Positions 158-23,976 of a stretch of DNA of 40,435 bases are shown here, in pieces (position 1 is the first letter of the stretch; each line of letters opens with the position of its first letter). The notes under the pieces were generated by a model, which made no database searches, was not told where the DNA came from, and saw nothing but the letters and a program-made list of their open reading frames with translations. The translations under genes were made by a program, and so were the position numbers. Source of the stretch: Flavobacteriales bacterium (lineage in GTDB: Bacteria; Bacteroidota; Bacteroidia; Flavobacteriales_C; GCA-002722245); assembly GCA_002722245.1 (NCBI GenBank), contig PBLA01000025.1:1-40435 (forward strand), written 5' to 3'.

Positions 158-307
158 TCACAAATCATATTCATCAATATAAATATCATCAAGATCTTCT
201 TCAATCTCAACATTTGTTTCAAAGAAACTTGATGGGCAGGCAAGGAATACTCTCGTCATTTTTACGTCCTCAGAAACATCAAGAGCATGTACGTTTAAAT
301 TTTGCAT
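158..307 (-). CDS. Possible 49-residue acidic protein
   Basis: An ATG-started ORF of 49 codons with an in-frame stop seven codons upstream. The predicted peptide begins MQNLNVHALDVSEDVK and ends in a very acidic tail (EIEEDLDDIYIDEYDL). I recognise no family. Support comes from an exact Bacteroidetes-type promoter about 28 bases upstream of the ATG and from protein-like composition. The opposite-strand ORF covering 136-387 has a less protein-like composition and no supporting signal. No clear Shine-Dalgarno is seen, which is usual in this phylum. It may be a real small protein or chance. Confidence 0.4.
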   Translation of the reverse strand: MQNLNVHALDVSEDVKMTRVFLACPSSFFETNVEIEEDLDDIYIDEYDL

Positions 308-365: not shown

Positions 366-453
366 TCACTACTTTGGGGTATACTAACACAAAGATGATT
401 TATGGAACTTAATAACTCATATTTTTTGTTGATAACAATAAACGCAATTACCA

Positions 454-493
454 TAAAAAGGGTACTTTTTAGTACAAAAGTAATTCTACCCTT
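454..493 (-). terminator. Probable minus-strand terminator downstream of the chaN-like gene
   Basis: Arms AAGGGTA (458-464) and TACCCTT (487-493) flank an AT-rich loop that can itself fold (GTAC-N6-GTAC). Read on the minus strand the structure ends in a run of T (455-459). The 494-614 stretch between it and the chaN-like stop codon would be a 3' untranslated region; I see no gene in it. Confidence 0.5.
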
Positions 494-614: not shown

Positions 615-1475
615 TTAATAAGTCTTAGTCATATCCGCATCAACAACAATAATAAAATCGGCTTTCCCTATATTTTCTTTCTTTAGCTTTTGAACGTTTT
701 CCTGACACACTGTTGAGATTGTTCCAAAACTTATATTTGGTTGCTGTTTTTTTACATACCATAAAATTCCTTCATAATAATTACTATGATAAGCACCATT
801 GTAATGAATAAATAGTTCCCCCTTTTGTAAATTTTGTATAATAAAATGAGCCATTGTTGCATCTTTACACGCCTGTGCCTTTATTAAATCTGGTGAACCG
901 TGACCACCCATCATTGAGAGAATAGCCTTATAACTTGGAATATCCGGATCAAAAGGTATCGGTAATGGAGCTATCCATTTTTTCTCTTTTGCAGACAATG
1001 AATCTAATGCTTTGAAACCACCCCTTTTATTAACTGCTGCCGCATACCTTCGAGGGATATTTGTTGCTATAAAAGGTAAGTTCATCTCCTTTGCATATTC
1101 AACTAGAGGCTGATAATCCGTTTTAAAATTTTTCCAAAGTCTAACTAACGAAACAAAATCTTGAATACTTATAGAATCTGACAAGTACCAATTCAGTTCA
1201 TTTTGATTATCTGATTCAAACATTTCAGCTCCTAGAATCAATTTCTTCTTTTTACCTAAAGCTATTGTTGTCTCTAATTGCAGCCAATGTGCTATTGGAT
1301 TATTATGTAGTTCCCCAAATAGTATAAGTTGTTTTTGCTCTAGTACTGAAATCATCGATGAAAATCTAACTTTTTTCCCTTTAGAATCATAAAGAACGTA
1401 GGCTGGTTTATCAAATTTAAACGCGGTTATCAAAACAATAACAAGTGAAAAAACAAACAACTTTCGCATATTCAA
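615..1475 (-). CDS. ChaN-family haem-binding exported protein
   Basis: A 286-residue protein with an N-terminal hydrophobic export signal (residues about 4-19). Residues about 50-250 look like the ChaN/DUF399 fold (Cofac_haem_bdg). The family hallmark GELH appears in LFGELHNNPIAHW near residue 52, followed by AEMFESDNQ and, near the end, IHYNGAYHSNYYEGI. Known members (for example Campylobacter ChaN) are iron-regulated surface lipoproteins that bind stacked haem. No lipobox cysteine is visible here, so it is more likely periplasmic or signal-peptidase-I processed. Its position near a haem-uptake locus fits, although the haem genes start 2.5 kb away. A near-consensus promoter (TTG-N18-TATGTTTTG) may lie upstream. 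Family assignment is firm; haem binding in this protein is inferred. Confidence 0.8.
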   Translation of the reverse strand: MNMRKLFVFSLVIVLITAFKFDKPAYVLYDSKGKKVRFSSMISVLEQKQLILFGELHNNPIAHWLQLETTIALGKKKKLILGAEMFESDNQNELNWYLSDSISIQDFVSLVRLWKNFKTDYQPLVEYAKEMNLPFIATNIPRRYAAAVNKRGGFKALDSLSAKEKKWIAPLPIPFDPDIPSYKAILSMMGGHGSPDLIKAQACKDATMAHFIIQNLQKGELFIHYNGAYHSNYYEGILWYVKKQQPNISFGTISTVCQENVQKLKKENIGKADFIIVVDADMTKTY

Positions 1476-1607: not shown

Positions 1608-1631
1608 AAAAAGGAGCGAACTAGCGCTCCT
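1608..1631 (-). terminator. Terminator of the candidate small RNA
   Basis: On the minus strand GGAGCG (1625-1630), a six-base loop and CGCTCC (1613-1618) are followed by TTTTT (1608-1612). Confidence 0.75.
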
Positions 1632-1701
1632 CCCCTTAATTTACTTAAAGAATAGAATTCTCCTAAATTATCCACTATAGCAATGGCTTGCTATGACTTT
1701 G
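1608..1701 (-). ncRNA. Candidate small RNA of about 94 nt, three hairpins
   Basis: A gene-free segment with a complete transcription unit on the minus strand: a consensus promoter ending at 1708, a start expected near 1701, and a terminator at 1608-1631. Three stems can be drawn. Hairpin 1 is ATAGCAA-gcca-TTGCTAT (1677-1694). Hairpin 2 has outer arms TAATTTA/TAAATTA (1637-1643 with 1664-1670) and inner arms AGAAT/ATTCT (1649-1653 with 1657-1661). Hairpin 3 is the terminator. There is no ORF of useful length. The promoter carries the same operator as fumC and the haem operon. I cannot assign an Rfam family; flavobacterial motifs such as Flavo-1 should be tested. Confidence 0.65.
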
Positions 1702-1707
1702 ATTTTT

Positions 1708-1754
1708 CAAATTTACATCGAGATAAATACCCTAACAATAACCTATTTTAGGTA
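1708..1754 (-). promoter_or_regulatory. Small-RNA promoter with TACCT-type operator
   Basis: Reading the minus strand: a 16-mer TACCTAAAATAGGTTA (1739-1754), then TTG directly after it (1736-1738), a 20-base spacer and TAAATTTG (1708-1715). The -33 and -7 boxes match the Bacteroidetes consensus exactly. The distal half TACCT is intact; the promoter-proximal half is degenerate (GGTTA in place of AGGTA). Operator centre to the last base of the -7 box is 38.5 bp, the same as at fumC. Confidence 0.7.
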
Positions 1755-2273: not shown

Positions 2274-3692
2274 TTAATTTGATTTAGTCATTTTCTCAGC
2301 GTCTACCCAATGATCAAATTGAGATTCATTAAGTATGTTTAGATTTATAGCAGCCTCTTTTAAACTAATCCCATCTTCAAACGCTTTTTTAGCAATTTTC
2401 GCTGATTTATCATATCCAATATGGGTATTAAGCGCTGTAACTAACATGAGAGAATTATTTAAGTGCTCCTTGATTTTAGAATAATTAGGAGTTATACCAA
2501 CAATACAATTTTCAGTAAATGATCTTACTGCATCTGAAAGTAAATTTGCAGACTCCAAAAATGCATAAATCATTACTGGCTTATATACATTTAACTCAAA
2601 GTGCCCATTTGAACCGGCAAATGAAATTGTAGTATCATTACCCAATATACGAGCGCAAACCATTGTTAAAGCTTCTACTTGAGTTGGATTTACTTTACCA
2701 GGCATAATAGAAGATCCTGGTTCATTAGAAGGAATTATTATTTCTCCAATTCCAGATCTCGGTCCAGAAGCCAACAAGCGAATATCATTAGCTATTTTAT
2801 TAATACTTACTGCTAATAACTTAAGAGCATTATGAGTTTCAACAATTGCATCATGTGCTGCTAAAGATTCAAACTTATTTGGAGCTGTTTCAAAAGGTAA
2901 ATCAGTTAATAAAGCAATCTTCTTTGCTACTAATTTTGCGTAACCATTAGGAGTGTTTAAACCTGTTCCAACAGCCGTTCCTCCTAAAGCCAAATGACTC
3001 AAATGTCTAAGGGAAGCATTAAGAGCATTTAACCCATATTCCAATTGAGCGACATAGCCGGAAAATTCTTGGCCAAGAGTTAAAGGTGTAGCATCCATCC
3101 AATGGGTTCTCCCAATTTTCACTACATCTTTCATTTCCTCTGATTTTCGATTAATTGATTCCTTTAACAACTGAATACTTGGAATTACTTTTTGCACAAC
3201 TGTTTTATAAGCTGCAATGTGCATGGCTGTTGGGAATGTATCATTTGATGACTGAGATTTATTTACATCATCATTTGGATGAATCAAATAATCTCCTTCT
3301 CCTAAAAGGTTACCTAATAATTCATGGCATCTATTTGATATTACCTCATTAACATTCATGTTCGATTGTGTTCCAGAACCAGTTTGCCACACAACGAGCG
3401 GAAAATGCTCGTTTAAACTCCCTTTTATTATTTCATCACAAGCTACAGCAATAACTTCGGCTTTTTCCTTTGATAATACACCTAACTCATTGTTTGTTAT
3501 TGCTGCAGCTTTTTTCAGATATCCAAATGCTTGAATAATTTCTTTAGGCATACTTGAAGGTTCTCCAATAGGAAAATTTTTTATTGATCGTTGTGTTTGA
3601 GCACCCCAATATTTATTATTAGATACTGATATCTCACCCAATGTATCTCTCTCAATACGATAAAGACCTGGTCTTTCTAGTAATTCTTCCAT
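2274..3692 (-). CDS. fumC: Class II fumarate hydratase
   Basis: Interconverts fumarate and L-malate in the citric acid cycle, in the cytoplasm. At 472 residues it has the normal class II length. The superfamily signature [13 protein letters not shown] is present near residue 328, and other conserved blocks are seen: [45 protein letters not shown] and [20 protein letters not shown]. Class II fumarases need no iron-sulfur cluster, unlike class I, which fits a gene sharing an operator with haem/iron uptake. The promoter has an exact -7 box and two TACCT-N6-AGGTA sites. It is transcribed divergently from the haem transport operon and followed by a small unknown gene. Confidence 0.97.
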
Positions 3693-3718
3693 TTTTATTT
3701 ATTTAGAATGATTCTAAA

Positions 3719-3765
3719 CAAATGTATGATGGAAAATTATATTCAGCAGTACCTTTATTCAGGTA
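3719..3765 (-). promoter_or_regulatory. fumC promoter with proximal TACCT-N6-AGGTA operator
   Basis: On the minus strand: operator TACCTGAATAAAGGTA (3750-3765), then CTG (3747-3749, one mismatch to TTG), a 20-base spacer and TACATTTG (3719-3726), which matches TAnnTTTG. The operator touches the -33 box, the position expected of an activator that contacts RNA polymerase. Centre to end of the -7 box is 38.5 bp. Confidence 0.7.
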
Positions 3766-3780
3766 AAAAAAATATTTAAA

Positions 3781-3796
3781 TACCTACATTAAGGTA
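3781..3796. promoter_or_regulatory. Second TACCT-N6-AGGTA operator in the fumC-hmuT gap
   Basis: TACCTACATTAAGGTA, a perfect 5-6-5 inverted repeat whose outer bases extend the symmetry (ATACCT...AGGTAT). Its centre is 31 bp, about three helical turns, upstream of the fumC-proximal site. It could serve fumC, the divergent hmu operon, or both. Confidence 0.65.
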
Positions 3797-3897
3797 TTAT
3801 TAATAATAAACAAGTAATCCTTTTGTGATTAACATAATAAGCTTTATTTAAGGATATTACAGGTTATTATCTTCTCAACTTATAAATCTAATTCAGA

Positions 3898-3947
3898 TAC
3901 CTTAAACAAGGTAAATTGAGGTGTTTTTATAAATTTTAAATGATTTG
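3898..3947 (+). promoter_or_regulatory. Haem operon promoter with TACCT-N6-AGGTA operator
   Basis: Plus strand: TACCTTAAACAAGGTA (3898-3913), two bases, TTG (3916-3918), 21 bases, then ATGATTTG (3940-3947), which keeps GATTTG of the -7 box but not the TA. The order operator / -33 / -7 is the same as at fumC, with centre-to-end distance 41.5 bp. The start of transcription would fall near 3954, 50 bases before hmuT. Confidence 0.55.
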
Positions 3948-4004
3948 ATATTAATTTAACCAGCCATGGAAAATTAAACTTTGCTTTAAAAATCAAATCA
4001 AAAA

Positions 4005-4871
4005 ATGAATTACAAACTATTTGCAGTATCAGTTTTTATCGGTCTCCTTTTTGTAAGTTGCCAGGAAAAAAAATCAGTAAAAAATGAGTCAAATTCAAAT
4101 AAAAAAACAATACGAATTGTATCCTTAAATGGTGCACTCAGTGAAATCATATACGCACTTGGTTATGAATCAAATCTGGTAGCAACAGATGTAACCAGTA
4201 ATTATCCAGAGAGCATTCATAAACTCCCTAAAGTAGGACATAACAGAAGTATACAGGCGGAAGGAATTTTAGCCCAAAATCCGGATGTAGTAGTCGGTAT
4301 TCAAAAAGAATTAAATCCAAAAGTCATAAAACAAATCAAAGCAAGTGGAATTAGAGTGGTTTTATTCAATCAAGAACATTCGATTGAAGGAACTAAAAAA
4401 TTAATACAAGGAGTTAAAGACAGTCTCAATTTTGATATTGAAAATGATTCACTAAATATTTTGATTGATCAATCAATTAACAAACTAGAGGCATTTGAGC
4501 AGTCCCCAAAAGTTTTATTTATATACGCTCGAGGGGCTGGAACAATTTTAGTAGCTGGAAAAAACACTCAAATGGATCAAATGATATCTATTGCCGGGGG
4601 AAAAAACGCAGTTGACAATTTTGAGTCATTCAAACCATTAACTGCAGAAGCTATTGTAACCGCTAACCCTGATGTTATTTTAATGTTTACAACTGGAGCT
4701 CAAAGTCTAAATGGTGTATTTGATAATGTCCCGGGAATACTTCAAACAAATGCCGGTAAAAACAAAAGAATTATTACAATGGACGGTCAATACTTATCAG
4801 GATTTGGACCTCGAGTTGGTAAAGCAGCATTGGAGCTTAATGAAAAGTTGGGTGAAATTTTTACAAAATGA
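4005..4871 (+). CDS. hmuT: Haem ABC transporter substrate-binding lipoprotein
   Basis: Binds haem in the periplasm and passes it to the HmuUV permease. The 288-residue product starts with a lipoprotein signal, with lipobox FVSC at about residue 19. It then has a periplasmic binding protein fold (PF01497): IRIVSLNGALSEIIYALG, VATDVTSNYP, LPKVGHNRSIQAEGILAQNPDVVVG, and later PLTAEAIVTANPDVILMFTTG. Ligand specificity cannot be read from the fold, which also serves siderophores and vitamin B12; haem is inferred from HmuS and the HmuY-like genes next door. First gene of the operon; its stop overlaps the hmuU start as ATGA. Confidence 0.88.
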   Translation: MNYKLFAVSVFIGLLFVSCQEKKSVKNESNSNKKTIRIVSLNGALSEIIYALGYESNLVATDVTSNYPESIHKLPKVGHNRSIQAEGILAQNPDVVVGIQKELNPKVIKQIKASGIRVVLFNQEHSIEGTKKLIQGVKDSLNFDIENDSLNILIDQSINKLEAFEQSPKVLFIYARGAGTILVAGKNTQMDQMISIAGGKNAVDNFESFKPLTAEAIVTANPDVILMFTTGAQSLNGVFDNVPGILQTNAGKNKRIITMDGQYLSGFGPRVGKAALELNEKLGEIFTK

Positions 4872-5905
4872 CCCAAAGAGTAAAAATAACCTATATTTCT
4901 CTTCTCGTATTGTTACCAATATGTATAATTGCGGGAACATCACTTGGTGCTTTTAAGATTGAATTTGAACAATGTGCAAATATTTTATTGAATTTATTCG
5001 GAGCTGATAATTACAGCGATTTTACTAACCCTCAACATAATGTTTTACTTTACATAAGGCTGCCGAGGGTTTGTTTAAGTATGATGATTGGAGCGGCATT
5101 GGCAGTAAGTGGCGCTGGTTTACAGGGGCTGTTTAGAAATCCACTTGCAGACCCTGGTCTAATTGGTATTTCAGCAGGAGCAATGCTCGCAGCCTCCATT
5201 GCCATAATAATGGGACTTCAGTTTACAAGTGGATTTTTAGGGTATTACAGTATTTCATTCGCTACTTTTTTAGGGGCTATTTTAACAACAATCATTGTAT
5301 TCAAATTATCAAAGTCAAATAAATCAACCAACATTGCAACCATGTTATTGGCAGGAATCGCAATTAATGCTTTGGCAGGTGCTGTTACAGGTTTTATTAT
5401 TTATTTATCGGATGATGATCAACTCAGAGATATTACGTTTTGGAGCTTGGGAAGTTTAGGCGGCGCTGATTGGGAAAAAGTTATAGCATTAATCCCACTT
5501 ATAATTTTACCAATTATAATGATTGCCCGACTGGCGAAAAAACTTGATGTTTACGCTCTTGGTGAATCTGAAGCATTATGCTTAGGAGTAAATGTAAACA
5601 GTCTTAAAAGAAGATTGGTTGTATGGGTTACTATATCCGTAGGAGCCTGTGTTGCTATTGCTGGTATGATCGGCTTCATTGGCCTTCTAATTCCGCACAT
5701 TACAAGATTATTAGTTGGGCCAAAACACAGAAATTTAATTTGGATTTCTGCAATTTTAGGAGCTTTGGTTCTCAGCATCTCCGATTTACTATGTAGGCTG
5801 ATTGTTGCCCCCGCAGAACTTCCTATTGGAATTTTAACTGCAATTTTAGGGACTCCATTATTTCTAGCTTTATTAATTCAACAAAAGAGAAAAATTAATG
5901 GTTAA
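4868..5905 (+). CDS. hmuU: Haem ABC transporter permease (FecCD family)
   Basis: Inner-membrane permease of the haem importer, 345 residues, with multiple hydrophobic segments typical of the FecCD/BtuC family (PF01032). Family landmarks include LPRVCLSMMIGAALAVSGAG, the following GLFRNPLADPGLIGISAGA, and near the C terminus GMIGFIGLLIPHITR and LPIGILTAILGTPLFL. It starts inside the hmuT stop (ATGA), showing translational coupling, and its 3' end overlaps hmuV by eight bases. It should work as a dimer with two HmuV subunits. Confidence 0.93.
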   Translation: MTQRVKITYISLLVLLPICIIAGTSLGAFKIEFEQCANILLNLFGADNYSDFTNPQHNVLLYIRLPRVCLSMMIGAALAVSGAGLQGLFRNPLADPGLIGISAGAMLAASIAIIMGLQFTSGFLGYYSISFATFLGAILTTIIVFKLSKSNKSTNIATMLLAGIAINALAGAVTGFIIYLSDDDQLRDITFWSLGSLGGADWEKVIALIPLIILPIIMIARLAKKLDVYALGESEALCLGVNVNSLKRRLVVWVTISVGACVAIAGMIGFIGLLIPHITRLLVGPKHRNLIWISAILGALVLSISDLLCRLIVAPAELPIGILTAILGTPLFLALLIQQKRKING

Positions 5906-6716
5906 AACTAAAAATATTTCTTTTGCTGTTGGAAAAAAAAATATCCTGAAAAATGTTAATTCAACCTTTGAAAATGGTAAAGTATCCGCAATTTTAGGAC
6001 CAAATGGAGCAGGCAAATCAACATTAGTCAAATGTATTTCGGGAACCATAACGCCAAATAAGGGAGTTATAGAATTAGATGGTAAAAACATTAAAAATAT
6101 TGGATTAGAAAATTTAGCCCTGAAAAGAAGTTATCTGAATCAACAATTTAACTTGTCTGTTGGATATACAGTTAAGGAAATTGTTTCTATGGGTAGATTC
6201 CCTCATTATAAAGTTTATCCATCAAAAAAAGATGATGAAATTATTACCTCAGCAATGAAATTACTCGATATAATTTCTTTATCAGATAGAATTACGAATA
6301 CCCTTAGTGGAGGAGAATTACAAAGGGTTCACTTTGCCAGGACTCTGGCCCAAATATGGCCGAATTCCAAAGAGGAACAAGAAGGGAAAATATTGATTCT
6401 AGATGAGCCCGTTAATAATTTAGACCCTCAATTTCAGCATTCAATATTAGAATTAGCAAAGAGATTTGCTGAGAATCATAATGTATGCGTGATTATAGTA
6501 CTCCATGATTTAAATTTAGTAGCTCAGTATTCAAACTACTCAATAGTAATGAGGCAAGGAGAAGTCATTACTCAAGGAAAAACTCGAGAAGTATTGACTG
6601 AAAAATTATTAGAAGAAGTATATAAAGTACCTATATCAATTATAAAAAACGACCACCATTTCAATATAGTAACTGGTGTCAAATATAACCGATTAGAAAA
6701 TGAATTAATTAGATAA
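5898..6716 (+). CDS. hmuV: Haem ABC transporter ATP-binding protein
   Basis: Cytoplasmic ATPase that powers the haem importer, 272 residues. Walker A is GPNGAGKST near residue 36, the ABC signature is LSGGELQR near residue 139, Walker B is ILILDEPVNNLDP, and the switch histidine is in VIIVLHDLNLVAQYS. Gene order after the permease and the eight-base overlap with it are typical of hmuUV operons. Eleven bases separate it from hmuS. Confidence 0.93.
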   Translation: MVKTKNISFAVGKKNILKNVNSTFENGKVSAILGPNGAGKSTLVKCISGTITPNKGVIELDGKNIKNIGLENLALKRSYLNQQFNLSVGYTVKEIVSMGRFPHYKVYPSKKDDEIITSAMKLLDIISLSDRITNTLSGGELQRVHFARTLAQIWPNSKEEQEGKILILDEPVNNLDPQFQHSILELAKRFAENHNVCVIIVLHDLNLVAQYSNYSIVMRQGEVITQGKTREVLTEKLLEEVYKVPISIIKNDHHFNIVTGVKYNRLENELIR

Positions 6717-6727
6717 ATTTATTTAAA

Positions 6728-7801
6728 ATGAAAGATATAAAAGTTAATGAAGAACCAACGTTAAAAAAACAATGGATTAAATTCAAAGCGGAAAACCCTA
6801 AAGTAAGAATACGAGATGCTGCCGAAATATTAAATACTTCTGAAGCGGAATTATTAGCTACAGGTTGTAATGATACTGTAACTAGACTTGATGTCAACTT
6901 CAGTGATTTTCTTACAAATGAAATACCCAGACTTGGAAAGGTTAAAGCGCTGACACGCAATGATGAAGTAGTGCACGAAAGAAATGGAGAGTATCTTAAC
7001 CCCAGTTTTGGTAAAAATGCTCACGTGGGATTATTTGTTGGAGAAGATATTGACTTGAGAGTTTTCTTGAACCATTGGGAATTCACTTTTGCTGTTTCTG
7101 AATTTGCCAGAGGTAGTGAACGTTTCAGTATTCAATTTTTCAGCAAAGACGGAAGTGCTATTCATAAAATTTATTTAATTAAAGAAAGTAATACTGAGGC
7201 ATTTCTAAAAATTAAAAAATCCTATAAACATCATATTCAAGGCATTGATGAAAACGAAATTAGTTCTAAAAAGATTGATCCTGTAAAAAGAAATGAAAAT
7301 CCCAATAAAGAAAAATTTCAGCAAGATTGGTTGAATTTAAAAGATACACATGCCTTTTTTCCATTAATGAAAAAACATGGTGTTACTCGCCTACAATCTC
7401 TGGAATTAGCACCCAATAAAGACGGTATTAAATATGCTAAAAAGGTTTCTAACGATGTGATTAAAAAATCTTTAAAAAAAGCAGCGGAAACCAATACACC
7501 AATCATGGTTTTTGTTGGAAACAAGGGGATGTTACAAATTCATACAGGTCCTGTAAAAAAATTACTTGAAATGAAAGAATGGTACAACATAATGGATGCA
7601 GATTTTAATTTGCACATTAAAATAAATAGTATTAGGGAGTGTTGGCTGGTAAAAAAACCAACCTCTGATGGTGATGTCAACTCTATTGAAATATTTAATT
7701 TCAAAGAGGAGCTTGTTTGTACTTTTTTTGGAAAAAGGAAACCTGGAATTCCAGAGGACTCAAACTGGAGAGAAATTATTAATGAAATGGATTTAAACTA
7801 A
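6728..7801 (+). CDS. hmuS: HemS/ChuS-type haem-handling protein
   Basis: Cytoplasmic protein that accepts imported haem, and in several relatives degrades or stores it. At 357 residues it has the two tandem HemS domains (PF05171) of full-length members. The first includes RIRDAAEILNTSEAELLATG and ends about residue 160. The second starts about residue 195 and carries the conserved block FVGNKGMLQIHTGPV, then NLHIKINSIRECWLVKKPT. Note the naming trap: in Porphyromonas gingivalis hmuS means a CobN-like protein, which this is not. Its stop codon is one base from the stop of the convergent hmuY-like gene, with no terminator between them, so read-through could make antisense RNA. Confidence 0.9.
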   Translation: MKDIKVNEEPTLKKQWIKFKAENPKVRIRDAAEILNTSEAELLATGCNDTVTRLDVNFSDFLTNEIPRLGKVKALTRNDEVVHERNGEYLNPSFGKNAHVGLFVGEDIDLRVFLNHWEFTFAVSEFARGSERFSIQFFSKDGSAIHKIYLIKESNTEAFLKIKKSYKHHIQGIDENEISSKKIDPVKRNENPNKEKFQQDWLNLKDTHAFFPLMKKHGVTRLQSLELAPNKDGIKYAKKVSNDVIKKSLKKAAETNTPIMVFVGNKGMLQIHTGPVKKLLEMKEWYNIMDADFNLHIKINSIRECWLVKKPTSDGDVNSIEIFNFKEELVCTFFGKRKPGIPEDSNWREIINEMDLN

Positions 7802-7802
7802 A

Positions 7803-8807
7803 TTACAACAGCATAAATTCAAATTTTATATTCCCTTTTTGACCACTATCGTTATAAAAATCAATTACATGAAATTTATAATAAAAACCTGACTTATCTT
7901 TTATGACAAAATTCTTTTCTGGATGAATGATGTAAGAACCTGATTCGTAATCATAGGTTTTCCAATCATATCCAATAACATTATGATTAAAACTATATTC
8001 TAAAGTTTGTGCTGCATCACGGTTTATATTTTCAAAACCAAAGATGGTATCTCGATGCACCGATATTCTACTTGGATTGAGCAGTATTCCAGTTACTCCA
8101 TATGGAATAGGAACTCCTTCACTCTGAAAAGTATGAGTATACTTCGTAAAAACTAAATCCCAATCATCTTTTGGTGGTTCTATAGATACAATAGCACCCT
8201 GATTTTCAAAAGATAAAAACACAAAATTGTAATCATTATCTTTTGAGATAAATTTTGTAAACTCATTTTCACCTGATAAATCAGCAATTTTAACTTGATA
8301 GCGATTATCGGATAAACCTAATATCTTCATTTTTTTATATCCTTGAGAATATCCTTCACTATTATATCCCATATCCAATACAAAAACTTGATTATTTGAA
8401 ATTATATCTTCTCCATTCTTTTGTCCCCATTCACCAATTGCTGTCGAGTCAATAGAGCCGTTTGGGTTATCCCAGGTCCATTCAGCTCCTGAATAAGACT
8501 CAACAGCAGAAAATGATGTTTCGCCTGAACACCAAACCTGCATTCCTTTACTTGCATTTAATTTAATGTGATATCCTTCATCACCGCATTCAAATCCAAT
8601 ATCCCATTCTGTAGTTATGTTTTTAGCAACCTCTTTATTAGACTCCAAATCATAAAAAATTTGATATTTATAATCCGAATCTAAAAATACTGATGCTGTA
8701 ATTTGTTCTCCTGTTTTTTTTTGTCTTTCAATGGGCTGTTCCTCTTTTTCACAAGAAAAAATAAAAAAAGAAATAAACAATAAGGTAATGCTTTTTATAT
8801 ATTTCAC
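7803..8807 (-). CDS. HmuY-like haem-binding lipoprotein
   Basis: A 334-residue lipoprotein (signal with lipobox IFSC near residue 19), probably on the outer membrane surface. HmuY proteins bind haem and deliver it to the paired TonB receptor. It shares with the neighbouring T9SS paralogue the landmarks EWDIGF, DWDLVFTKYTH, YGVTGILLNPSRISV and IGYDWKTYDYESGSY, so I assign it to the HmuY family (PF14064). Two cysteines, at GFECGDEG and VWCSGE, could form a disulfide. The start is GTG at 8805-8807, overlapping the receptor stop as GTGA, so the two are coupled. Last gene of the minus-strand haem cluster. Confidence 0.8.
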   Translation of the reverse strand: MKYIKSITLLFISFFIFSCEKEEQPIERQKKTGEQITASVFLDSDYKYQIFYDLESNKEVAKNITTEWDIGFECGDEGYHIKLNASKGMQVWCSGETSFSAVESYSGAEWTWDNPNGSIDSTAIGEWGQKNGEDIISNNQVFVLDMGYNSEGYSQGYKKMKILGLSDNRYQVKIADLSGENEFTKFISKDNDYNFVFLSFENQGAIVSIEPPKDDWDLVFTKYTHTFQSEGVPIPYGVTGILLNPSRISVHRDTIFGFENINRDAAQTLEYSFNHNVIGYDWKTYDYESGSYIIHPEKNFVIKDKSGFYYKFHVIDFYNDSGQKGNIKFEFMLL

Positions 8808-11080
8808 TTTATATTGATTTTAGTTTTTTTTATTCGGTTTCCGTTTAAATCAATTTTAATTGAAGTGAATACCGACATCCCCCAACTCATTGATACGGAA
8901 CCTGTACTGGAAGAATGAACCCCAGATGCGCCTCTAGAAACAATATTTTTAACATTAAATAAATTCTTACCACCCAAGGTCCACTTAATTTTATTTTTCC
9001 ATAAACCTTTCGTAGCTGTTAAATCAAGCGTGTTAAAATCTCCCAAAAAATTTTGTTGTATTTCATCATCTTCATCAAAGTAGTATCCAATAATTTCTCC
9101 TGAGTACTTATAAAAACCTGAAAAATTTAAATTATATCTTCGTAAATCATATGAAAAATTACTTCTTAATTCAGGAGAATAGCTAAAAGGTTCTATACTT
9201 AAATCCTCAGAAAGAGAATTGTATCTACCTGTATAAGTTCCTGAAAATGTACACTTAAAATGACTAATCACAAGCTCTATTTGAGCCAATGCACCAAGTG
9301 TTTTGTATTTATCGAGATTAAAATAAGAATATGAGTTCCCTTCACTAATCGCTAGTGTAATTAAATTATTTATGTTGTTGTAAAAACCTGAACCTGTCAT
9401 TTTAAATACTTTATTTTTTTTAACGATGGTTTTTACTCCTGAAAAACTAAAATTATGTGAAGTCTCTGCAGTCAAATTTGGGTTTCCCTGAATATCATGG
9501 TTACTGTCCACAAAATTAAAATACAGGTCTTTTATTGATGGCGCCCTAAATCCAGAGGAATATGAAGTCCTAAATATCCAATCTCTTATATTATATCTCA
9601 AATTTAAAGAGGGTATTAATGGAGATTTGTACGATGTATTATAGGAGTATCTTAATCCGGGACGGATGATTAATTTATTTAGAGGTTTATATTCTGCACT
9701 CCCAAAAATCGCATAATCTCCTATTGCTTGAGTTTTTTCTTTAATTCGCTTTCCGTATCCTGTTTCAAAATTAAAATCATATCCTAAGGCATAATTAAAT
9801 TTTGCAGAATCATTTAAGGTTGAGTAAGTCCCTCTGGCCATAAATAAGTCGAACAACGTTGTGTCCTGATCTGAGACATTTTCTGACAAATTACTTTGTA
9901 GAGTAGTTAAATCAGTATAAAATGTGTTTTTTTGTCTTCGAAAATAATTGTAGGCGAAAATCATGTTTAGTCGTGCTCTTTTGCTAAACTTTCGTCTGAT
10001 ATTTAAATTGTTACTCCATCGATTTGTATGATAAAAATCATCAAATGCTGTTTCATTATAGGGGGCTCTTGGATAGCCTTTGTTGATGATTTTTTCTTTA
10101 AAATAATCGGAAGAAAATCGATAATTTAATTTTAAGAATTTACCAGAGTGAAGTACTTTTAAAAAATTTTGCTCTTTGGGTTTCCATGAATTAAATCGAG
10201 TAGAGTCAGCGATTTTAATCCTATTTATATCAAAAAAGGGGTCAGAAACATTCCAACCATCAAAAAAATTCCTTCCTCCATTTATGGAATATTGATATCC
10301 TTTTCGATTAAATTTTAAACTGCCATCAAGGTTATATTGACCAACCGTTTCATAATAAGTATTGAGATTTAAGTTATATTTTTTTCTGGAGGACTTTTTT
10401 GTAATTAAGTTTATAGTACCTGCTAAGGCATTTGTCCCATATTCAACGGATAAAGGTCCTTCAATAATTTCAATACGCTCAATATCATTTAAATTAATTT
10501 GACTTAAATCGATATTTCCGCCTACACGTCCAATTATGGGAACACCATCAATTAATATTTTCACGTTTTGCCCACTCAAACCTTGAACACTTGTACTACT
10601 TCCTAAAACATTATCCTGTGTAATCCTAACATTAGTTTCATTGCTAAGAACATCTCTTAAATTTACTGCACCAAGAGATTCTATTTTCTTTTGATCAATT
10701 ACTTTAATTTTATGTACTGCTTTTTCAGGGCTGTTTTCAGCATATTGAGCTGTTACAACAACTTCATTGATATCAACCGATTCGTGTTCTAATTCAAACT
10801 TTTTGCTCTCTCCACCTTGAAGAGTATCTATGATATACTTATGTCCAACAAGGAAAATATAAACCTCTGTTCTTTTGGTAAAAGGATTTATTGCTCTTCC
10901 TTCTTTATTTGTAAGAACAAACTTGGTATTAAATTTAGTGCAATCTAGACACGTAAATTGAACATGCGCTCCCTCAGCAGGCCTTTCTCCTTTAGGCAGA
11001 AAAACTTCAATAAGACTTTGAGAAAAAATAGTATTTGTTAATCCGACAAAAAATAGTATTAACGCACCTAATCTTATCAT
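8804..11080 (-). CDS. TonB-dependent receptor, probably for haem
   Basis: Outer-membrane receptor of 758 residues, functionally HmuR-like. It has a signal peptide ending near SQS (residue 22), then a short carboxypeptidase-like beta domain with an unusual CxxC (FTCLDCTKF, near residue 45). The plug domain is about residues 120-230 (LGAVNLRDVLSNETNVRITQ, ILIDGVPIIGRVGG, IERIEIIEGPLSVEYGTNAL), followed by the 22-strand barrel. The substrate is inferred from HmuY-like genes on both sides. It is coupled to the downstream lipoprotein by a GTGA overlap and separated from the upstream HmuY-like gene by a long hairpin. Import needs TonB-ExbBD encoded elsewhere. Confidence 0.85.
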   Translation of the reverse strand: MIRLGALILFFVGLTNTIFSQSLIEVFLPKGERPAEGAHVQFTCLDCTKFNTKFVLTNKEGRAINPFTKRTEVYIFLVGHKYIIDTLQGGESKKFELEHESVDINEVVVTAQYAENSPEKAVHKIKVIDQKKIESLGAVNLRDVLSNETNVRITQDNVLGSSTSVQGLSGQNVKILIDGVPIIGRVGGNIDLSQINLNDIERIEIIEGPLSVEYGTNALAGTINLITKKSSRKKYNLNLNTYYETVGQYNLDGSLKFNRKGYQYSINGGRNFFDGWNVSDPFFDINRIKIADSTRFNSWKPKEQNFLKVLHSGKFLKLNYRFSSDYFKEKIINKGYPRAPYNETAFDDFYHTNRWSNNLNIRRKFSKRARLNMIFAYNYFRRQKNTFYTDLTTLQSNLSENVSDQDTTLFDLFMARGTYSTLNDSAKFNYALGYDFNFETGYGKRIKEKTQAIGDYAIFGSAEYKPLNKLIIRPGLRYSYNTSYKSPLIPSLNLRYNIRDWIFRTSYSSGFRAPSIKDLYFNFVDSNHDIQGNPNLTAETSHNFSFSGVKTIVKKNKVFKMTGSGFYNNINNLITLAISEGNSYSYFNLDKYKTLGALAQIELVISHFKCTFSGTYTGRYNSLSEDLSIEPFSYSPELRSNFSYDLRRYNLNFSGFYKYSGEIIGYYFDEDDEIQQNFLGDFNTLDLTATKGLWKNKIKWTLGGKNLFNVKNIVSRGASGVHSSSTGSVSMSWGMSVFTSIKIDLNGNRIKKTKINIK

Positions 11081-11091
11081 CTCTTAATTAA

Positions 11092-11125
11092 TTTTAGAGA
11101 TAGTTTTTTCAAACTATCTCTAAAA
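11092..11125 (-). terminator. 34-base perfect hairpin between hmuY-like and receptor genes
   Basis: Minus strand: TTTTAGAGATAGTTT, a GAAA tetraloop, then the exact complement (15-bp stem). GAAA is a GNRA loop. The following sequence TTAATTAAG is a poor U tract, so this looks more like a partial terminator or an mRNA-stabilising 3' end than a full stop. It would favour the upstream T9SS HmuY-like message over the receptor. Confidence 0.65.
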
Positions 11126-11141
11126 TCATAATTATACTATT

Positions 11142-12374
11142 TTATTTTACCATTATTTTTGACAAAATTGATCCACCTTGACTTGATATATTAATCATGT
11201 ATAGTCCTGATGCGTAATTATCTACATTTAATTTTAATGTATTTATACCTCTATGACCTTGAATTGTATTTGAATAAATTTTAACTCCAGATATATTATA
11301 AATATCAATTTTTGACTCGTCAGCGTTCTTCTGATCAAAAACTATATTTAACAAATTCGAAGCTGGATTGGGAAAAGTTCCTACACTTGAAATATTTAAT
11401 TCTTGAGTTCCTACAGATGACGTTATTTTTTCCTTTGTAAAGTAAAAATTCCCACTTGAACTTCCTCCAAAACCAGTAAATACTAACTTCCATAATTGAC
11501 TATCTTTTGCTTTAATAAAATAAGTTAAGCTATCATTTGCAGAATATTGTCTAGTTAAATAATCATATGTTTTCCAGTCATATCCAATCACTGAAATACT
11601 ATTTGAAAAAGATGTATTTAAGGTGTCTGCATCCTCGTTATGAATACCACTAACCTCATTCACAGATACACCATCGTTTCCTAGTACACCAGTTACTCCC
11701 ATGTAATATGAAGGAGTAATAGCTTTTCCGTATTTAGTAAATACCAAATCCCAACTTGTATTGTCAGGCTCTCTATCAATTTCAACTTCATTTTGAATTG
11801 AATAATATCCAAAATTTTTGTTGATATAATCATCTTTTTTCAGAGTATCTAGCACCTCATTACTTCCATCTAAGTCAGAATATTTAAAATAATACACCCC
11901 ACTTGCTAACCGATCTATCCAAAGTTTTTTGTATTCTAAATTTGATAATTTAATAATAAAAAGGGAATCCCCTGTAACATAATGAGTACTCATATTATAA
12001 ATCCCCCACCCTAAGTCAAACATCCCCGATGAAGTTTGACTAAAAGCTCCTTTAGACCAAGATGAATCAGAATTATAATATTTGGTCCAACTAGAAATTC
12101 CAGATGTATCTATACTAGACCAATGAGAAATGTCTCCATTTGGATAATTATATAACTCTGTTCCAGAAGCACCATTAATTCGAATTGTAGAACTCATTCC
12201 AGAAACCTGAAAAGCTATATCCCAATCTCTTTCAACAGTTTTAACTTCATTATTTTCAAGACTATAATAAACATCATTTACATATTCGGCACCTAAAGAA
12301 ACAGTATCCGTAATTTGGGCATTCAATCCAAAAACCGTTAAGGCACTGGATATAAGTAGAGTAATCTTTTTCAT
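11142..12374 (-). CDS. HmuY-like protein exported by T9SS
   Basis: A 410-residue secreted protein. Residues 1-19 are a signal peptide (ending LNA). Residues about 25-310 are HmuY-like: RDWDIAFQVSG, TSWDLVFTKYGKA, MGVTGVLGNDGVSV and VIGYDWKTYDYLTRQY match the lipoprotein paralogue 3 kb downstream. From about residue 325 there is a type A T9SS sorting domain (VGTFPNPASNLLNIVF ... GLYMINISSQGGSILSKIMVK). The combination suggests a haemophore released or anchored on the cell surface by T9SS, working with the receptor and the lipoprotein. It follows the response regulator gene by 112 bases, a gap that holds an inverted repeat. Haem binding is inferred. Confidence 0.8.
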   Translation of the reverse strand: MKKITLLISSALTVFGLNAQITDTVSLGAEYVNDVYYSLENNEVKTVERDWDIAFQVSGMSSTIRINGASGTELYNYPNGDISHWSSIDTSGISSWTKYYNSDSSWSKGAFSQTSSGMFDLGWGIYNMSTHYVTGDSLFIIKLSNLEYKKLWIDRLASGVYYFKYSDLDGSNEVLDTLKKDDYINKNFGYYSIQNEVEIDREPDNTSWDLVFTKYGKAITPSYYMGVTGVLGNDGVSVNEVSGIHNEDADTLNTSFSNSISVIGYDWKTYDYLTRQYSANDSLTYFIKAKDSQLWKLVFTGFGGSSSGNFYFTKEKITSSVGTQELNISSVGTFPNPASNLLNIVFDQKNADESKIDIYNISGVKIYSNTIQGHRGINTLKLNVDNYASGLYMINISSQGGSILSKIMVK

Positions 12375-12423: not shown

Positions 12424-12486
12424 GAAAGGATACTGTCTAAAAAACAATAACTATAAAACGTTATATTTTGAAAAAGCCCCCCATTT

Positions 12487-13125
12487 TTAGGGTAGCATCA
12501 ATAAGTTATTATTTACCGCATACAAGGTAAGTTCTGCTGAAGAATTTACTCCCAATTTTCTCATTGCATTTTTTCGATGTGTATGAACAGTATGATGACT
12601 TATGGAAAGTAATTTACCAATTTGTCTATTTGTATTTCCACCTGCTATATATTTTATTATATCTCTTTCTCTTTTTGTTAAATCATCTTCCTTAAAATGA
12701 ATTGACTCTTTAACATTTTTCTTATTCACCAAAATATTAATTATGTGAGAACAATAATATTTCCCTCCAGACATCACATTTCGTATCGCATTGCATATTT
12801 CTTCTTTAGAATTCTCTTTAGTCAAATACCCATGAACACCAAGATCTAGTACATTTATTATTCTTGACGGATCTGTATCATTCGAAATTACGATAATTTT
12901 AACCTTAGGAAAGTTTTGAACAATCATTGCAATATCAAGTTGAGAAAACTCTTTTTCCTTCGAATAATCAATAAAAAGTAAATCAGTATCGAATGCAAGT
13001 AAAGCATTTTTCAAAACTTCACTACAAGAAACGTGTCTGAAATTATTTGAAAAATTACTATTTTCTAAAAGACTTCGAAGACCTTCTGCGAATAACGGTT
13101 GAACCTCTGCATGTATTACTCTCAT
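12487..13125 (-). CDS. NarL/FixJ-type response regulator with altered acidic pocket
   Basis: A 212-residue DNA-binding regulator. The receiver domain (1-120) keeps a likely phospho-acceptor Asp in LLFIDYSKE (near 53), a Ser in VISNDTD and the Lys in GYLTKENS. Where relatives have two acidic residues (ADDHPL) this one has AEVQPL, so the metal-binding pair is weakened. The LuxR/GerE HTH (about 145-212) reads LTKRERDIIKYIAGGNTNRQIG, then LLSISHHTVHTHRKNAMRKLG. No kinase gene is in the window. It is the first gene of the minus-strand haem cluster, and its own promoter carries the TACCT operator, which has NarL-type 7-2-7 geometry. I infer it is an autoregulated haem-locus regulator. Confidence 0.88.
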   Translation of the reverse strand: MRVIHAEVQPLFAEGLRSLLENSNFSNNFRHVSCSEVLKNALLAFDTDLLFIDYSKEKEFSQLDIAMIVQNFPKVKIIVISNDTDPSRIINVLDLGVHGYLTKENSKEEICNAIRNVMSGGKYYCSHIINILVNKKNVKESIHFKEDDLTKRERDIIKYIAGGNTNRQIGKLLSISHHTVHTHRKNAMRKLGVNSSAELTLYAVNNNLLMLP

Positions 13126-13152: not shown

Positions 13153-13199
13153 TAAATTTCGAAAAGGGACTTAGGTATTTCAATAACTTAAATGAGGTA
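13153..13199 (-). promoter_or_regulatory. Regulator promoter with TACCT-type operator
   Basis: Minus strand: TACCTCATTTAAGTTA (13184-13199), then TTG directly after it (13181-13183), a 20-base spacer and GAAATTTA (13153-13160). The operator has one mismatch to TACCT-N6-AGGTA. The -7 box keeps only A and TTT of the consensus, as expected of an activator-dependent promoter. Centre to end of the -7 box is 38.5 bp. Confidence 0.5.
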
Positions 13200-13201
13200 A
13201 T

Positions 13202-13245
13202 AAACTCCCTAAGCGTACCCTATATGTGGTATGCTTTGGGAGTTT
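13202..13245. promoter_or_regulatory. Long imperfect hairpin containing a distal TACCC-N6-TGGTA site
   Basis: Arms AAACTCCCTAAGCGTACC (13202-13219) and GGTATGCTTTGGGAGTTT (13228-13245) pair over 18 positions with one mismatch and one G-T wobble, around an eight-base loop. Its core, TACCCTATATGTGGTA (13216-13231), fits the operator with 7-2-7 geometry. Its centre is 32 bp from the proximal operator, matching the 31-bp spacing of the two fumC sites. It lies in the gap between the regulator gene and the divergent yceI-like gene. Confidence 0.5.
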
Positions 13246-23283: not shown

Positions 23284-23976
23284 ATGAAGAAATATAAATC
23301 CATTATTATTGACGATGATCCTATAGCGCAAAAACTCATGGAGCAGTGCGTTAATCGAAATAATTCATTTGAGCAACCTTTCATTGTAAGTGATGTTATT
23401 TCATTAAAAGAGAAATTGAAAGAGGAAGCAATTGATGTTCTTTTTTTGGATGTTGAATTACCTGAACTTTCTGGAATCGACTTCATGAGAGTTTCCAAAG
23501 ACCTTCCCCAAGTAGTCCTGATGAGTAATATGAAACAATATGCTGCTGATGCTTTTGAGGTTGAAGCGTTGGAATTTTTACCAAAACCCGTAGATTATAA
23601 TCGATTTTTAAAAACGGTAAACAAGCTGGATCGAAATAGTTCATCTTCCACTATCCCTGAACAGGAAGAAAGTATTTTCTTCAAAATAAATGGTAAACTC
23701 CAAAAAATTAATCTGAGTGATGTTTTATTTTTTGAGGCCATGTCTGACTATGTTAAAATTATTACAGCTGCAAAAACCTATGTTGTTTTGCACACAATGA
23801 CTAAACTACAAAACCATCTACCCAATTCTTTTTTAAGATGTCACCGATCTTACTTGGTTAACCTAAAAAAGGTTGATGCCCTAGATGATCGTGTGCTAGA
23901 AGTAAAAGGTCACGCGATTCCAGTATCCAGAAGCTATTACAATACAATTAAAAATCGTTTGAAAGTATTTAATTAA
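23284..23976 (+). CDS. LytTR-type response regulator
   Basis: A 230-residue transcription regulator. The receiver domain (1-120) has the acidic cluster IIIDDDPIAQ, phospho-acceptor Asp in LFLDVELPELSGIDF, Ser in LMSNMKQ and the KP pair in FLPKPVDYNRF. A LytTR DNA-binding domain follows (about 140-228): FFKINGKLQKINLSDVLFFEAMSDYVKI and FLRCHRSYLVNLKKVD. I chose ATG at 23284 because MKKYKSIIIDDD is the standard family start; the extra upstream codons (from 23245) do not resemble it. No histidine kinase is adjacent, so it is an orphan in this window. Convergent with gyrB. Confidence 0.92.
   Translation: MKKYKSIIIDDDPIAQKLMEQCVNRNNSFEQPFIVSDVISLKEKLKEEAIDVLFLDVELPELSGIDFMRVSKDLPQVVLMSNMKQYAADAFEVEALEFLPKPVDYNRFLKTVNKLDRNSSSSTIPEQEESIFFKINGKLQKINLSDVLFFEAMSDYVKIITAAKTYVVLHTMTKLQNHLPNSFLRCHRSYLVNLKKVDALDDRVLEVKGHAIPVSRSYYNTIKNRLKVFN

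Follow-up and report, generated by a model that had tools for sequence, protein, structure and literature searches.

TACC-N8-GGTA, a probable operator of atypical LuxR/NarL-type regulators at iron and haem promoters of Bacteroidia

Results

Genes of the haem locus

The window, i.e. the whole stretch of 40,435 nucleotides that was analysed, carries a haem locus with the genes given below. G001 and G002 denote two genomes of the same genus with the same haem locus.

158–307, minus strand: acidic open reading frame (ORF) of 49 aa (MQNLNVHALDVSEDVKMTRVF...), with a related ORF in G002
615–1475, minus strand: ChaN-like haem-binding uptake protein (Pfam PF04187, E 2.5e-55)
1608–1703, minus strand: short RNA of ~96 nt upstream of chaN, ending in an intrinsic terminator, its start placed from the -7 box
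2274–3692, minus strand: fumC, class II fumarase (TIGR00979)
4005–7801, plus strand: haem import operon with binding protein, permease and ATPase (hmuTUV-like) and HemS/ChuX
7803–12374, minus strand: outer-membrane haem uptake genes, namely HmuY (7803–8807), TonB receptor (8804–11080) and T9SS-sorted protein (11142–12374)
12487–13125, minus strand: atypical LuxR/NarL-type response regulator, the proposed binder (Pfam GerE and Response_reg)

The response regulator is the first gene of its minus-strand operon and is followed by the T9SS-sorted protein, the TonB receptor and HmuY; by this gene order and by the operators described below, the regulator is tied to HmuR/HmuY in the window. Class II fumarases are the iron-free type of this enzyme. 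The short RNA, conserved and about 100 nt long, contains hairpins and the conserved stretch GTAAATTAAGGG, is preceded by the same site in three species and represents a candidate iron- or haem-responsive small RNA. Rfam and tRNA scans of the window returned no matches. A segment of 6.9 kb (3897–10792), the left edge of which lies at the haem operator, is 98.9% identical to G001, with matched DNA outside of it at ~68–74%; judged from these identities, it appears to be a recent exchange of haem genes between species.

Operators and promoters in the window

The promoter elements found at these genes are the following:

366–381, minus strand: operator of the 49-aa ORF, TACCCCAAAGTAGTGA, then TTG, N20, TAAGTTTG
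449–464, minus strand: further upstream core of the 49-aa ORF, TACCCTTTTTATGGTA
1739–1754, minus strand: operator of the short RNA, TACCTAAAATAGGTTA, then TTG
1708–1715, minus strand: -7 box of the short RNA, TAAATTTG
3750–3765, minus strand: fumC operator TACCTGAATAAAGGTA, then CTG directly, with a same-phase orthologous site in G001 and G002
3719–3726, minus strand: fumC -7 box TACATTTG, 23 bp after the operator
3702–3718, minus strand: Fur box TTTAGAATCATTCTAAA, located shortly after the -7 box of fumC and conserved in G001 and G002
3781–3796, minus strand: second fumC-side operator, palindromic, 31 bp upstream of the first, not conserved in G001 and G002
3898–3913, plus strand: operator of the haem import operon, TACCTTAAACAAGGTA, conserved as TACCnTAAACAAGGTAAATT in G001 and G002
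3940–3947, plus strand: weak -7-like box of the haem operon, ATGATTTG, 26 bp after the operator
12448–12463, minus strand: degenerate operator of the T9SS-sorted protein gene, TAACGTTTTATAGTTA, then TTG, N20, CAAATTTG
13184–13199, minus strand: operator of the response-regulator operon, TACCTCATTTAAGTTA, then TTG; TACC-N7-RAGTTATTG is kept in G001 and G002
13153–13160, minus strand: weak -7-like box of the response-regulator operon, GAAATTTA
13216–13231, minus strand: second operator of the regulator operon, TACCACATATAGGGTA, 32 bp upstream (31 bp in G001 and G002)

The preliminary description of this DNA had placed three perfect TACCT-N6-AGGTA palindromes between fumC and the divergent haem operon, and all three are found in this intergenic region of 312 bp without a mismatch (3750–3765, 3781–3796 and 3898–3913). 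The probability of three copies occurring by chance within one such region is P ~1e-10, or ~3e-7 when corrected for the ~2,500 intergenic regions. Close variants of the palindrome stand at the remaining promoters of the haem locus, and nearly all of its transcription units begin with some version of the site.

At four promoters the layout of site, -33 element, spacer and -7 box agrees with what had been described: the order is site, CTG, N20 and TACATTTG at fumC; site, AA, TTG, N21 and ATGATTTG at the haem operon; TACCTCATTTAAGTTA, TTG, N20 and GAAATTTA, a weak -7 box, at the response regulator; and TACCTAAAATAGGTTA, TTG, N20 and TAAATTTG at the short RNA. Hereby, the spacing at the haem operon (26 bp from site to box versus 23 bp elsewhere; 26–27 bp with its relatives) is an exception and not the rule. 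Two promoters absent from that description precede the 49-aa ORF (site 366–381) and the T9SS-sorted protein gene (site 12448–12463). The -7 box TAnnTTTG of the Bacteroidota sigma-A promoter is found at fumC, the short RNA and the 49-aa ORF, and weakly at the haem operon and regulator promoters. Tandem sites spaced by 31–32 bp, or three helical turns, are seen at fumC, at one gene of contig C20 and at the regulator gene, where all three species have the pair. A further site at 12514–12529 was taken as a chance match, since it lies inside the regulator coding sequence.

Since the exact palindrome occurs at 9 places in the 3.0-Mb genome, compared to 12 for the reversed control, it cannot serve to mark such sites across the genome. 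With at most one mismatch, the full promoter pattern, made up of site, one base, TG, spacer and -7 box, has 8 matches in the genome, of which 5 fall on this 40-kb contig, corresponding to 1.3% of the genome (P ~2e-8). These five are the promoters of the 49-aa ORF, the short RNA, fumC, the T9SS-sorted protein gene and the response-regulator gene.

Elsewhere in the same genome, contig C20 carries a full promoter that matches perfectly (23424–23470) and, 31 bp upstream, a second core; the gene following this promoter begins with MNNYHILKHKNWTCEF. On contig C30 (73388–73434), the pattern TACCCCAAAAAAGGTATTTG...TAGTTTTG, with one mismatch, belongs to the sole DUF4856 gene match of this genome (C30:73553).

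Conservation in sister genomes

Most sites recur at orthologous promoters in G001 and/or G002 with near-identical phase. At the fumC, hmuT and regulator promoters of the three species the sites are kept while the flanking non-coding DNA has diverged, and the distance from site to box is equal across the species at fumC and at the regulator and amounts to 26, 26 and 27 bp at hmuT. The letters kept are TACC-N8-GGTA, with GTTA as second half at the regulator promoter. The palindrome is real, but the core that can be defined from the letters kept in the relatives is TACC-N8-GGTA and not the TACCT-N6-AGGTA originally proposed. At the short RNA of G001 and G002, TACCTAAA-N8-ATTG-N20-TAATTTyG is kept and the second half-site is degenerate; at the operator of the T9SS-sorted protein gene, the right half TAGTTATTG alone is conserved in both genomes; and the orthologous 49-aa ORF of G002 is preceded by TACCTTAAAATAGTTA, TTG, N20 and TAAGTTTG. 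In G006 and G007, the fumC promoters show neither the site nor a Fur box, and membership of fumC is thus local to this genus.

A promoter pattern of fixed geometry across Bacteroidia

The pattern TACC-N8-GKTA-YTG-N20-nAnnTTTG is present in 136 of 395 Bacteroidia genomes and its reversed control in 4, counts which are not independent, as the genomes are related. When TTG was not required and the gap between GGTA and TAnnTTTG was allowed to range between 8 and 38 bp, the 150 matches listed included 38 with a gap of 23 bp and 12 with a gap of 22 bp, compared to a mean of 3.4 at the other gaps. In related genomes the motif thus occurs neither at chance frequency nor without fixed phasing, and the identical phasing beside the -33 box, which had been noted for the promoters of the window, proves to be sharply fixed class-wide. 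The start codon mostly follows 15–60 bp after the -7 box (~60 sites). Among 61 first downstream genes, the enriched families are DUF4856 (13), TonB plug (10), GerE/LuxR-type regulator (5), HmuY (4) and FeoA (2), and the single cases include CbiX and an imelysin.

An independent set of 30 DUF4856 genes was compiled with the protein family as sole criterion. The full site is located upstream of 24 of these genes (23 with a gap of 23 bp and one with 22 bp), and the reversed control of none (0/30). Around HmuY, one of 30 stretches contains the full site, which we ascribe to HmuY rarely being the first gene of its operon.

Fur boxes

Positions 3702–3718 match the Fur box TTTAGAATnATTCTAAA without a mismatch, and TTTAGAATnATTCTAAA stands right after the fumC -7 box in all three species. 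A clear Fur box is found at fumC only, with none at the remaining promoters of the window. The Fur box ATTTAGAATTATTCTAAAT of Riemerella was tested by EMSA/gel shift (PMC5609570). This flavobacterial box, which is matched by 3702–3718 as well as by boxes at many of the class-wide sites, is known as a lone Fur site, whereas here it would be one half of a composite promoter that also holds an activator site. When up to 3 mismatches were allowed, 19 of the 24 site-bearing DUF4856 promoters contained a Fur-like box; the scrambled box gives 5 at this threshold, since it resembles the real one. This count is unbiased, as the loci were chosen by protein family and not for Fur boxes, unlike a tally of boxes at offset 19, part of the loci of which had been selected for such boxes. 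Most of the Fur-like boxes lie 53–67 bp from the start of the site, i.e. around the expected transcription start. In the genome of the window, TACCTATTTTTAGGTA (C2:27942–27957) and a Fur-like box, TTTAGAATTAGTCTAAA, precede a gene for a SufA/IscA-like iron-sulfur carrier, with a spacing that differs from the standard promoter.

The candidate regulator

The regulator encoded in the window comprises a receiver domain (PF00072, E 7e-9) and a GerE helix-turn-helix (PF00196, E 8e-19). Relatives are present in 211 of the 395 genomes, some of which have 2 to 4 family matches. A relative is found within 1 kb of a full site, mostly within 100 bp, in 17 genomes where ~0.2 are expected; hereby the regulator gene lies either directly downstream of the site (self-regulation) or immediately ahead of it. 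At five loci (L084, L098, L099, L112 and L115) the regulator gene ends 5 to 50 bp before the site driving the next operon, and regulator and target are often arranged head to tail. Neglecting phylogeny, the regulator is present in 110 of the 136 genomes with the site and in 101 of the 259 others (odds ratio 6.6, P 5e-16), and DUF4856 genomes carry the site in 23 of 25 cases with the regulator and in one of five without a regulator match, phylogeny again being ignored.

The recognition helix ISHHTVHTHRKNAM is identical in three species, the whole proteins of which share only 45–48%. In the receiver domain, the phospho-acceptor position is D in 30 of 31 aligned regulators and N in G001. The receiver is nevertheless atypical, since the second acidic residue of the Mg pocket is absent in all 31 and a conserved lysine occurs in 18 of them. 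No sensor kinase gene adjoins the regulator in the window. These features suggest that the regulator is an orphan that may act without phosphorylation. As judged from the sequence features described above, the atypical LuxR/NarL-type regulator of the locus is the best candidate and the most likely binder of TACC-N8-GGTA. The fixed distance, the iron and haem targets, the Fur sites and the adjacency to the regulator together indicate that the site is very probably the switch of this LuxR-type family.

Discussion

Relation to known regulators

NarL and NarP of Escherichia coli recognise TACYYMT heptamers in a 7-2-7 layout. With these proteins the system described here shares the LuxR/GerE DNA-binding domain, the TACC-N8-GGTA core and the 16-bp dimer site. 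The preliminary description had likened the site to this layout, which is borne out for the core, as the outer tetramers TACC...GGTA stand 8 bp apart in all three palindromes of the window and in the sites of G001 and G002 (some with GTTA), but not for the inner letters of the heptamer, which in 109 sites depart from YMT (position 6 is T, C or A and position 7 mostly A or T). Apart from the inner arms, the system differs from NarL/NarP in that its targets concern iron and haem instead of nitrate and that its site directly borders on the -33 element, with a single fixed phase. Likewise, HrrA and ChrA of corynebacteria are NarL-type, haem-responsive regulators of haem genes and in this resemble the proposed regulator; the ChrA structure was matched. 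They act with cognate haem-sensing kinases in Actinobacteria, whereas the regulator described here has no adjoining kinase.

Within Bacteroidota, the closest known regulator, likened by description and targets alone, is CdhR (PG1237) of Porphyromonas gingivalis, a DNA-binding response regulator which, according to the available parts of two later papers, activates hmuYR (Wu, Lin and Xie 2009, via PMC3832793 and PMC10101095). The link to CdhR is a strong lead by analogy; in the same parts, neither paper describes a sequence for the operator, a composite with Fur or a regulon that spans the class. The orphan, phosphorylation-independent response regulator SsoR of Shewanella oneidensis works with Fur in iron homeostasis, and no operator of the TACC-N8-GGTA type is reported for it in the available text (PMC12442407). 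In contrast to the family described here, which lacks part of the acidic pocket, SsoR is gammaproteobacterial and still phosphorylatable. The hfpR haem operon of Flavobacterium psychrophilum is subject to regulation by iron, with Fur as the only possible transcriptional regulator named in the accessible portion of the report (PMC9331221), and a genome-wide promoter study of this species presents sigma motifs and, in its main text, mentions neither TACC nor LuxR (PMC9723704). In line with the earlier remark that a described site of this kind was not known to its author for Bacteroidota, our literature search, which covered mostly papers outside subscription journals, found no description of a TACC-N8-GGTA operator.

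Proposed mechanism and alternative explanations

On evidence that comes entirely from sequences, we consider it highly probable that TACC-N8-GGTA is the operator of atypical LuxR/NarL-type regulators, which would activate by contacting sigma at iron and haem targets under co-control by Fur. In the window, the protein encoded at 12487–13125 would bind the site, and as a dimer it would touch the -33 element in the arrangement site, TTG, 20 bp, TAnnTTTG, most likely acting on the primary sigma factor as a class II type activator. We infer this contact from the geometry, in which the site ends at the -33 TTG with a fixed 23 bp to the -7 box; moreover, the -33 or the -7 box is poor at several promoters, which would fit a dependence on an activator. 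The targets would comprise iron and haem uptake genes, the gene of the regulator itself, the iron-free fumarase fumC and the short RNA. Many genomes have, at the same promoter, a Fur box that overlaps or flanks the start site, and a promoter carrying both elements would need the release of Fur as well as the presence of the activator. The likely logic would hence be that low iron lifts Fur from the promoter, upon which the regulator activates. Some observations stand against this explanation, namely the lack of genome-wide enrichment of the perfect palindrome, the gap of 26–27 bp at the haem operon, the poor -7 boxes at the haem operon and the regulator gene, the single half-site which relatives keep for the short RNA and for the T9SS gene, the restriction of clear Fur boxes in the window to fumC, and the site in one of the five DUF4856 genomes without a regulator match.

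That the three palindromes clustered by chance or represent a mobile repeat devoid of function could be argued from the control-level frequency of the exact palindrome in the genome; given the P value for three copies in one region, the orthologous promoters that keep their sites while the flanks diverge, the class-wide phase and the outcomes of the class-wide (136/395 versus 4) and DUF4856 (24/30) comparisons, this explanation is refuted and its probability is negligible. A site that is real and related to iron and haem might instead be bound by a paralogue of the LuxR family, the encoded regulator being a mere neighbour. NarL-type regulators have similar core sites, and LuxR-type regulators are numerous, with several per genome, so that a paralogue could be the binder. 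However, it is close relatives of exactly this regulator that stand beside the site in 17 genomes, and the presence of the site at DUF4856 tracks the regulator family, which makes binding by a paralogue improbable.

We likewise regard it as unlikely that the site is a repressor operator over the -33 region, at which the regulator would block RNA polymerase until released in low iron or haem. Such an arrangement would agree with the site abutting the -33 element and with one paper terming Porphyromonas PG1237 a repressor (PMC2671838). Activation, on the other hand, is favoured by the fixed phase of 23 bp and by the weak -33 or -7 boxes of several promoters, such as CTG in front of fumC and ATGATTTG in front of the haem operon. 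Moreover, repression is already provided by a separate Fur box, and PG1237/CdhR is reported to activate hmu in the available parts of PMC3832793 and PMC10101095.

Building on an activating LuxR-type regulator, a more far-reaching proposal, to which we give an even chance, is that of a class-wide two-key iron promoter, in which an orphan, phosphorylation-independent activator, bound to the -33 element in one fixed position, would act together with Fur at one of two preferred places. This promoter would govern haem and iron uptake, the gene of the regulator itself, iron-free metabolism (fumC) and, in this genus, a small RNA of the RyhB/PrrF type that responds to iron or haem.

Implications

Bacteroidota are dominant in gut and mouth as well as in many habitats of the sea and the soil, and how their iron and haem uptake is switched on beyond Fur is poorly known. 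The operator offers a possible DNA site for a haem activator of the CdhR type and ties the uncharacterised DUF4856 family to iron uptake. Together with the fixed geometry, the regulator family and the target list, it can be tested in any genetically tractable flavobacterium.

Apart from the standard spacing, genome G065 carries five related sites on several contigs, most of them TACCGCATTNNGGGTA, which are separated from the -7 box by 32–33 bp. Lying about one helical turn further out, these sites perhaps belong to a sister regulator.
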